A stretch of 64,000 nucleotides of DNA from contig JOAZ01000006.1 in the NCBI GenBank assembly GCA_000720535.1, positions 62,001 to 126,000 on the forward strand, written 5' to 3'. Below, in pieces: positions 1 through 33,906 of this stretch (positions are counted from its first letter, which is position 1; each line of letters opens with the position of its first letter). Source of the DNA: Streptomyces halstedii (lineage in GTDB: Bacteria > Actinomycetota > Actinomycetes > Streptomycetales > Streptomycetaceae). The notes below the pieces were generated by a model. It worked only from the letters and a program-made list of their open reading frames with translations. It did not search any database and was not told the DNA's origin. The translations under genes were made by a program, and so were the position numbers.

Positions 1-31
1 TGTCCGCGTACGGCACTGCCGTACGCGGACA
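1..31. terminator. Perfect inverted repeat, likely bidirectional terminator
   Basis: Two 14-nt arms (TGTCCGCGTACGGC and its exact reverse complement) are separated by 3 nt. It lies 30 bp beyond the stop codon of the first minus-strand gene, so it can end that transcript and probably also one entering from the left edge. There is no U-tract, which is usual for Streptomyces hairpin terminators. Confidence 0.75.
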
Positions 32-31612: not shown

Positions 31613-31642
31613 TTGTGTCCCTCGGGAGGCGGTGCCTAGGCT
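31613..31642 (+). promoter_or_regulatory. Candidate vegetative promoter
   Basis: TTGTGT (31613-31618) and TAGGCT (31637-31642) are 18 bp apart and match the HrdB-type consensus reasonably. The start of transcription would be near 31649, just before the ribosome site at 31656. Confidence 0.45.
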
Positions 31643-31675
31643 GTGGTCACACGTTGAAAGGAGGTGATCCGAAAA

Positions 31676-31714
31676 GTGCGGTCTTATCGGATTCGTGAGG
31701 TGGCTGCGGGCTGA
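31676..31714 (+). CDS. Candidate 12-codon leader peptide behind an extreme Shine-Dalgarno
   Basis: GTG 31676 begins the peptide VRSYRIREVAAG and stops at TGA 31712-31714, which lies at the top of the hairpin 31707-31721. The preceding GAAAGGAGGTGATCC is an exact complement of the last bases of 16S rRNA, far longer than any other ribosome site here. The spacing from the end of the match is 5 nt. A second ORF, GTG 31695 to TAG 31796 (33 aa), overlaps in another frame and could be translated instead. Confidence 0.4.
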   Translation: MRSYRIREVAAG

Positions 31715-31776
31715 CAGCCCGTCGTCGCACACAGTGCACCTCGGCAGGCTGTCTGCCGAAACCCACGCAGTCACCG

Positions 31777-31839
31777 ACCCGCAGGCCCGCCGGTAGATCC
31801 GGCCGGCCCCTCCTCACGGAGGGACCAGGGCCTGCGGGT
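31777..31839. terminator. Branched terminator-like structure
   Basis: ACCCGCAGGCCC at 31777-31788 pairs perfectly with 31828-31839. Inside are GCCGG/CCGGC (31789-31803) and CCCTCC/GGAGGG (31808-31823), making a three-way junction followed by TTT on the plus strand. Confidence 0.6.
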
Positions 31840-31851
31840 TTCCGCGTGCCA

Positions 31852-32796: not shown

Positions 32797-33906
32797 ATGT
32801 CCGATTTCGTACCCGGACTTGAAGGAGTCGTCGCGTTCGAGACGGAGATCGCCGAACCCGACAAGGAGGGCGGCGCGCTCCGCTACCGCGGCGTCGACAT
32901 CGAGGACCTCGTCGGCCAGGTGTCGTTCGGCCATGTCTGGGGTCTGCTGGTGGACGGGGCGTTCAGCCCCGGGCTGCCGCCCGCCGAGCCCTTCCCCATC
33001 CCCGTCCACTCCGGTGACGTCCGGGTCGACGTGCAGTCGGCGCTGGCGATGCTGGCGCCGGTGTGGGGCCTGAAACCGCTCCTGGACATCGACGAGGAGA
33101 CCGCGCGCGACGACCTGGCGCGGGCCGCCGTCATGGCGCTCTCGTACGTCGCGCAGTCGGCGCGCGGCCAGGCGCTGCCGATGGTTCCGCAGAGCGAGAT
33201 CGACAAGGCGCGGTCGGTGGTCGAGCGGTTCATGATCCGCTGGCGCGGGGAGCCCGACCCCAAGCACGTCAAGGCCGTCGACGCGTACTGGACCTCCGCA
33301 GCCGAGCACGGCATGAACGCCTCGACCTTCACCGCCCGGGTCATCGCCTCGACCGGGGCGGACGTGGCCGCCGCGCTCTCCGGGGCGGTCGGCGCGATGT
33401 CGGGTCCGCTGCACGGGGGCGCCCCGTCCCGGGTCCTCGGCATGATCGAGGAGATCGAGCGGACCGGCGACGCCACGGCGTACGTGAAGCGGGCCCTGGA
33501 CAAGGGCGAGCGGCTGATGGGATTCGGCCACCGGGTCTACCGGGCGGAGGACCCCCGGGCGCGCGTCCTGCGGCGTACCGCACGGGAGCTGGCCGCGCCG
33601 CGCTTCGAGGTGGCCGAGGCCCTGGAGCGGGCGGCGCTGGAGGAGCTGCACGCCCGTCGCCCGGACCGGGTGCTGGCGACGAACGTCGAGTTCTGGGCGG
33701 CGATCGTGCTGGACTTCGCCGAGGTCCCGGCCCCCATGTTCACGTCGATGTTCAGCTGCGCCCGTACGGCGGGCTGGTCGGCGCACATCCTGGAGCAGAA
33801 GCGGACGGGCCGGCTGGTGCGCCCCACGGCGCGGTACGTCGGTCCGGGGCCGCGTGACCCACGGGAGATCGCGGGCTACGACCAGCTCGCGGGCCAGGGC
33901 GGCTGA
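32797..33906 (+). CDS. Citrate synthase-like protein (citrate synthase 2 type)
   Basis: This encodes 369 aa from ATG 32797, preceded by GAGGGAG. It is a short, type I-sized citrate synthase: SAAEHGMNASTFTARVIAST carries the first catalytic histidine, GPLHGGAPSRVLGMIEEI and GFGHRVYRAEDPRA the second and the oxaloacetate residues. The catalytic aspartate of the canonical NVDFYSG motif is replaced by glutamate in TNVEFWAAIVLDFAEVP. The DARA arginine motif follows normally. The annotation citrate synthase 2 is common in Streptomyces, but with this change the reaction (citrate, 2-methylcitrate or another condensation) is uncertain. Confidence 0.88.
   Translation: MSDFVPGLEGVVAFETEIAEPDKEGGALRYRGVDIEDLVGQVSFGHVWGLLVDGAFSPGLPPAEPFPIPVHSGDVRVDVQSALAMLAPVWGLKPLLDIDEETARDDLARAAVMALSYVAQSARGQALPMVPQSEIDKARSVVERFMIRWRGEPDPKHVKAVDAYWTSAAEHGMNASTFTARVIASTGADVAAALSGAVGAMSGPLHGGAPSRVLGMIEEIERTGDATAYVKRALDKGERLMGFGHRVYRAEDPRARVLRRTARELAAPRFEVAEALERAALEELHARRPDRVLATNVEFWAAIVLDFAEVPAPMFTSMFSCARTAGWSAHILEQKRTGRLVRPTARYVGPGPRDPREIAGYDQLAGQGG

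Follow-up and report, generated by a model that had tools for sequence, protein, structure and literature searches.

The small RNA Ms_IGR-5 (RF02471), present in at least five phyla, holds a conserved short reading frame within a predicted pseudoknotted fold

The small RNA Ms_IGR-5 was first seen in Mycobacterium smegmatis. Rfam lists it as family RF02471 under the title 'Actinobacteria sRNA'. According to the accessible portions of the respective papers, the S. lividans homologue SLIV_16488 is marked as validated by RNA-seq (PMC8079986), the S. avermitilis homologue is a sRNA transcription unit with a mapped start and end (PMC8780764), an M. smegmatis RNA overlaps IGR-5 (PMC10454040) and ribosome-protected reads lie on the homologues of M. 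abscessus and M. smegmatis (PMC4974804), with the caution from the authors of the last study that footprints on small RNAs can also stem from RNPs. Neither a function nor a coding claim was found in the accessible literature on RF02471, Ms_IGR-5 and their homologues, and a term search of the available text of PMC5521070 and PMC6429828 found none for RF02471. The RNA described here belongs to this family by its score and departs from the family title, which is limited to Actinobacteria, by its presence in further phyla.

Several other systems resemble this RNA in one property and differ in another. In infC-type start-codon discrimination by IF3, a strong Shine-Dalgarno (SD) sequence accompanies AUU/AUC-type starts, as it does at some loci of Ms_IGR-5, whereas most Ms_IGR-5 loci (190/202) have ATG, GTG or TTG. 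Leader-peptide attenuators (PMC4833913) likewise have a short frame that ends in structure beside a terminator, but the gene they regulate lies downstream, and no regulated gene follows Ms_IGR-5 on the same strand. The dual-function sRNAs SgrS/SgrT and SR1/SR1P are also small RNAs that hold a short frame; their peptide acts (PMC11133741), while in Ms_IGR-5 the frame is kept and the peptide is not. In Staphylococcus aureus, extended SD motifs likewise go together with non-canonical starts of a regulatory kind (accessible part of PMC13009471), although those cases are mRNAs and uORFs and Ms_IGR-5 is a stand-alone pseudoknotted RNA. The S. coelicolor RNA scr3559 is listed as a Ms1/6S-like RNA, the type with a long hairpin that binds RNA polymerase.

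The window analysed here, a stretch of 64,000 nucleotides from Streptomyces halstedii, contains an RNA of ~190 nt (Table 1) that the earlier note had taken to be unannotated and without published description. It is a member of RF02471, with 80.9 bits (E 2.8e-16) against a cut-off of 45, and the only Rfam match at gathering threshold within the window. The further model matches in the window (2-4) scored 12.4 bits and below and were taken as chance, and ARAGORN found no tRNA-like domain with a tag frame, as in tmRNA, in the window. The RNA family is a known one, and what is new in the sequences compared is an SD stretch that exactly complements the 16S 3' end of the source genome, a conserved frame within a pseudoknotted fold and the presence of the RNA in at least five phyla.

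Table 1. Features of the Ms_IGR-5 locus, in positions of the window.
Feature	Position	Strand	Basis
Promoter-like -35 TTGTGT and -10 TAGGCT, 18-nt spacer	31613-31618, 31637-31642	+	sequence
Whole RNA, RF02471 match	31649-31847	+	Rfam
SD1 GAAAGGAGGTGATCC, 15 nt, exact complement of own 16S 3' end	31656-31670	+	
Micro-ORF of 12 codons from GTG, closed by TGA at 31712-31714	31676-31714	+	conservation of start, frame and stop
Pseudoknot 5' strand GGATT, ORF codons 5-6	31689-31693	+	
Invariant GAGGTG, codons 8-9, "SD2" (anti-SD-complementary), 9 nt before stop	31697-31702	+	
P2 5' strand GGTGGCTGC, ORF codons 8-11	31699-31707	+	
P3 5' strand, contains stop codon	31708-31719	+	alignment and MFE fold
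P3 3' strand	31747-31757	+	alignment and MFE fold
P2 3' strand GCAGTCACC	31767-31775	+	
T1, closing stem of the terminator, 12 bp (31777-31788 paired to 31828-31839)	31777-31839	+	alignment and MFE fold
T2, inner terminator hairpin (31789-31793 with 31803-31807)	31789-31807	+	
Pseudoknot 3' strand GATCC, loop of T2	31796-31800	+	

All the sequence parts that had been noted before, that is, promoter-like boxes, a 15-nt SD, a 12-codon ORF, a stop hairpin and a 12-bp stem with two inner hairpins, are present. The predicted minimum free energy is -111.8 kcal/mol (z -6.6), and none of 200 shuffles was equally stable. Transcription would start near 31650. In a fixed-position tally of 205 loci no base exceeded 52% at 40-13 nt before the SD, so conservation of the promoter is not established; by eye, a TAnnnT-like element lies upstream in many aligned rows.

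The frame is conserved far beyond this locus. The start at 31676, one of two that the earlier note had named, is conserved: an in-frame ATG, GTG or TTG that lies at 5-14 nt from GGAGG and is followed by an open frame as far as GAG was found in 190 of 202 distinct loci from six groups, compared with 8/202 and 0/202 when the wrong frames were given the same test. The remaining 12 loci have a one-base relative of ATG (ATT, ATC, CTG or ACG) at the start position. The distance from the SD to GAG occupies all three phases (66, 85 and 51 loci), which indicates that the frame is kept and not a fixed length; frame length lies between 11 and 19 codons. The stop lies exactly three codons after GAGGTG in 201/202 distinct loci, and within a set of 141 loci GAG and GTG are each present in 141 and the stop follows three codons on in 140, counts that must be read with the frame-end search, which asked for G[AT]GGTG, three codons and a stop in these 141 loci (only L092, whose stop comes one codon later, failed and was read one codon on), for GAGGTG, 2-4 codons and a stop in 47 loci, and for GAGGTG with no demand for a stop in 17. 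The loci are a retrieved subset of model and pattern matches, were found by models that themselves contain the GAGGTG letters, and share ancestry, so that they are not independent events; the 205 include three repeats (L142/L225, L146/L243 and L193/L257), leaving 202. TAG is the stop in 176 of the 202, TGA in 18 and TAA in 8, with a TAG baseline of 87/339 in crude genes of the actinomycete loci, and P3 may favour TAG. A 33-codon frame from 31695, which had also been pointed out, does exist, but we rejected it for lack of conservation: of 123 actinomycete loci, 24 have a codon other than GTG at its start, and in the 99 with GTG its length goes from 2 codons (19 loci) to 550.

This frame supplies the 5' strands of the fold. 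Codons 8-11 pair with GCAGYCACC to form P2, the stop codon sits in P3, and the inner loop of the terminator takes codons 5-6 as its partner in a pseudoknot. When RNAalifold was given 45 sequences and no structure, it found both P2 and the helix GGACN:N'GUCC. Together, P2, the pseudoknot, T1 and T2 are paired in 87.3% of the cells of this alignment, and on each of five measures the alignment did better than all 500 shuffles. P2 alone is paired in 97.0% of cells with 23 double-changed cells versus 5.4 in shuffled alignments, and in 55 held-out sequences from outside the first alignment it is paired in 481/495 cells with 26 double changes versus 6.4. For P3, scored on the first alignment only, 256/359 cells are paired and 27 double changes compare with 14.8 shuffled. 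Nearly all of the covariation in the pseudoknot is carried by one pair, pair 5, which is formed in 39 of the 55 held-out sequences versus 25.4 shuffled (0/2000 shuffles reach 39) and is compensated in L110. The other four pairs hardly vary, and the number of pair types is therefore no higher than in shuffled alignments (6 versus 6.0; 445/500 shuffles reach 6). At the locus in this window the ORF has GGAU instead of GGAC, and the loop has the matching AUCC.

Other helices fared differently. P1, a start-codon hairpin between GUCC of SD1 and GGAC, would compete for the GGAC of the pseudoknot; it is paired in 86.7% of cells versus 82.7% shuffled, with paired cells and covariation score above all 500 shuffles, but its 8 double-changed cells versus 6.7 are matched by 190/500 shuffles, and on this mixed support we keep it as a possible alternative only. 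The RF02471 consensus contains neither P2 nor the ORF-terminator pseudoknot. It has a helix between the SD and codons 10-11 in their place, which we rejected because it shows 0 double changes in the 45-sequence alignment and 500/500 shuffles are as good. The local hairpin GGGCT-GAC-AGCCC around the TGA stop is real at this locus, while the conserved elements are P3 and the long-range P2. Covariation is indeed seen in the stems, but the main ones, P2, P3 and the pseudoknot with the terminator loop, were absent from the earlier reading.

In other phyla the pseudoknot can be made of other letters. In Myxococcota we found CUACGGCG:CGCCGUAG, CAGUGAC:GUCACUG and CUACGACG:UGUCGUAG, and in one group of Acidobacteria (L230, L231, L232, L234 and L239) the partner is shifted to just past the terminator hairpin and differs among relatives (AACGCAA:UUGCGUU, ACACAA:UUGUGU and AAAUGC:GCAUUU). 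The mean helix score with own versus swapped partners was 17.08 versus 13.36 in Myxococcota (12 loci), 16.62 versus 13.67 in Methylomirabilota (13 loci), 15.32 versus 13.39 in other Actinomycetota (19 loci), 14.34 versus 12.85 in actinomycetes (121 loci), 13.11 versus 11.83 in Acidobacteriota (19 loci) and, with a weak difference, 12.33 versus 11.91 in Spirochaetota (6 loci, 5 distinct); this scoring omitted 15/205 loci with a weak P2 score or a short sequence and took both members of each repeat into the count. It put the loop of L265, L267 and L269 in the wrong place, and in these three the complement is visible by eye. Several Acidobacteria loci had no convincing partner in this comparison. 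Members of the Acidobacteria group with the shifted partner also have GGAGGATG in place of GGAGGTG (L230, L232, L234 and L239).

RF02471 was detected in 247/393 genomes of the source organism's class at E <=0.001 (244 above the cut-off) and in 46/246 genomes drawn from its phylum (24 above the cut-off). A pattern scan of a species-genome collection returned 74 stretches, including some from Acidobacteria, Methylomirabilota and a Spirochaetia MAG, of which 27 were inspected and 17 used. Three were dropped as ordinary coding DNA (L173, L176 and L203), and L152, L157, L172, L198 and L215 were inspected and left unused. The family is not confined to Actinobacteria as in its title, since a Methylomirabilota MAG (L159, 60.9 bits) and an Acidobacteria MAG (L142, 47.7 bits) exceed the Rfam cut-off of 45. 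R1, a covariance model of the RNA core built from 42 sequences, matched 36/40 Methylomirabilota, 23/149 Acidobacteriota and 6/120 Spirochaetota genomes, the seed genome included in each case, and 17/140 Myxococcota, where the seed genome is without a match and from which no sequence entered R1; the phylum labels rest on the seed-locus records and the scans covered the phyla reached by a seed genome. Among 26 Rfam-negative genomes of the source phylum, R1 added a match in 2 and none in 24, and neither gain was among the 18 of the source class; many genomes are without the RNA. A search with one exact pattern found no virus-borne copies. Two MAG contigs labelled Bifidobacterium breve (L178 and L214) have a mycobacterium-like copy, are probably misbinned and were dropped. 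Five loci give short Rfam matches of 135-151 nt (L116, L117, L119, L120 and L121), and in L120 the stretch from the stop codon to GGCCACC has shrunk to a few bases. Two matches to the family or the model occur in G072, G316, G375, G893 and G894.

A conserved micro-ORF in a pseudoknotted fold, present in at least five phyla, suggests that the RNA probably senses or holds ribosomes. The best reading, to which we give about even confidence from the sequences, is a stand-alone ribosome-gated regulatory RNA. A 30S subunit would be captured by SD1 and translation would proceed to the stop, for which the pseudoknot, P2 and P3 would have to melt; because the 5' strands of the core helices are codons 5 to stop, the frame cannot be read by a ribosome unless the core opens. 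When the stop codon occupies the A site, 6 nt separate the end of GAGGUG from the P-site codon, and as this is a normal SD spacing the anti-SD could grip GAGGUG and hold the terminating ribosome, although GAGGTG may instead be fixed for P2. A ribosome waiting at the stop would keep the core open, with CAGYCACC, the P3 3' strand and the terminator loop exposed, and the core would close when initiation or the ribosome supply drops. Ribosome occupancy would in this way be converted into RNA conformation, for which target pairing, a protein or RNA turnover are candidate readers. From the helices made of frame codons and the spacing of GAGGUG we infer capture, parking at the stop and switching. More tentatively, and with more doubt than belief, the RNA could be an ancient and widespread device for holding and re-using a ribosome, in which SD1 loads it, a frame of ~12 codons takes it across the RNA's own pseudoknot and a second SD, set at a constant distance, parks it before a mostly UAG stop, so that the fold would report the status of initiation, termination or recycling.

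The properties of SD1 bear on this reading and also on another possibility, which we consider unlikely, namely that the RNA is a ribosome decoy that only catches and holds 30S subunits or idle ribosomes, with the short frame and stop making capture reversible and the fold protecting the RNA. Within the window the 14-mer AAAGGAGGTGATCC has a single site at <=2 mismatches (0.13 expected), and the 7.74 Mb genome has exactly two copies, in SD1 and antisense to the 16S 3' end, the second locus being 16S rRNA according to Rfam. In 123 actinomycete loci the run of contiguous pairs between SD1 and the 16S tail has a median length of 16 (minimum 12) when G-U is included and of 9 for Watson-Crick pairs alone, while none of the 1960 further GGAGG sites of these loci exceeds 13 contiguous pairs; the SD is thus as extreme as had been noted. 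This strength would suit a decoy, as would the ribosome footprints on homologues (in the part of PMC4974804 available) and the 12/202 loci with near-cognate starts (L126-L128, L130, L131, L133, L134, L137, L139, L140, L124 and L023), at which ribosome departure would be slowed. However, RF02471 has a single match in the source genome and in nearly all matching genomes of the class (two in G072, G316 and G375), so titration of thousands of ribosomes would need extreme abundance, and a decoy leaves unexplained the pseudoknot between codons and the 3' end across phyla.

The ribosome-gated reading also has to be set against a micro-peptide gene or dual-function RNA, in which a peptide ending in E-V-x-x-x would act as the product. 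We regard this as improbable. Start, frame and stop are kept and E and V are present in 141/141 loci, as a peptide gene would have them, but residues 2-4 and the last three vary, with wide variation at codons 2-4, and so does the length. A conserved peptide product, as in dual-function sRNAs, was not found among the 141 loci, where only E-V is fixed. Moreover, GAG and GTG show no synonymous replacement in these loci, which points to a constraint at the RNA level. Across the loci compared, then, the start, the phase and the stop are kept while the peptide changes. The earlier note had offered a regulatory RNA that captures ribosomes or a very short peptide gene; of these, a regulatory RNA that engages ribosomes is well supported by the SD, the micro-ORF and the footprints on homologues, and a usual peptide gene is not, given the variable codons 2-4 and the fixation of the other codons at the nucleotide level.

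Just as improbable in our estimate is an ordinary base-pairing sRNA, whose C-rich 3' strands would meet mRNAs and whose SD and frame would have no role beyond linking it to ribosomes or protecting it. Its own transcription unit in S. lividans and S. avermitilis (accessible parts of PMC8079986 and PMC8780764) fits this proposal, but the 3' strands are accounted for by internal pairing and the frame is strictly kept.

Finally, we examined the genomic context. The RNA has a divergent PAS-domain gene on one side and a convergent pdxH on the other, and, as reported before, no gene follows on the same strand for 950 bp. Citrate synthase, at 32797, is the next on this strand, and the pdxH gene that separates it from the RNA is on the opposite one. 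In tblastn searches of 141 loci, many with a 1.5 kb flank, pdxH is downstream and convergent in 26 and citrate synthase lies beyond it in 20; elsewhere, in 18 loci read by eye, other genes flank the RNA. Crude gene calls place the next gene on the opposite strand in 83/136 loci, and neither the 141 loci searched with tblastn nor the 136 with gene calls revealed a conserved neighbour or a common downstream gene. We discarded the idea that the RNA acts in cis on pdxH or citrate synthase, as the gene order breaks even within the source genus, for instance in L085, L088 and L089. A leader-peptide attenuator of a downstream gene, for which the stop codon in a structured region beside a terminator would speak, is the least likely rival and very improbable, given the lack of a conserved downstream gene, the convergent pdxH and the frequent opposite-strand neighbours. 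The RNA looks like its own unit. In three Acidobacteria MAGs, tRNA genes lie within a few hundred bases after it (L142 2260-2435, L171 630-701 and L181 3042-3113).

To our knowledge, few structured RNAs are common to Actinomycetota, Acidobacteriota, Methylomirabilota, Myxococcota and Spirochaetota, and we know of none common to these five phyla that builds its fold from the codons of a conserved frame. Our results correct the RF02471 entry, with its Actinobacteria-only title and a consensus that is missing the helices supported here, and the loci with near-cognate starts offer a natural set for the study of start-codon discrimination. If the ribosome-holding device were true, it would represent a class of sensors for translation status that is new, and if the RNA senses ribosomes, it would give a handle on how initiation, termination or recycling is monitored in these bacteria.
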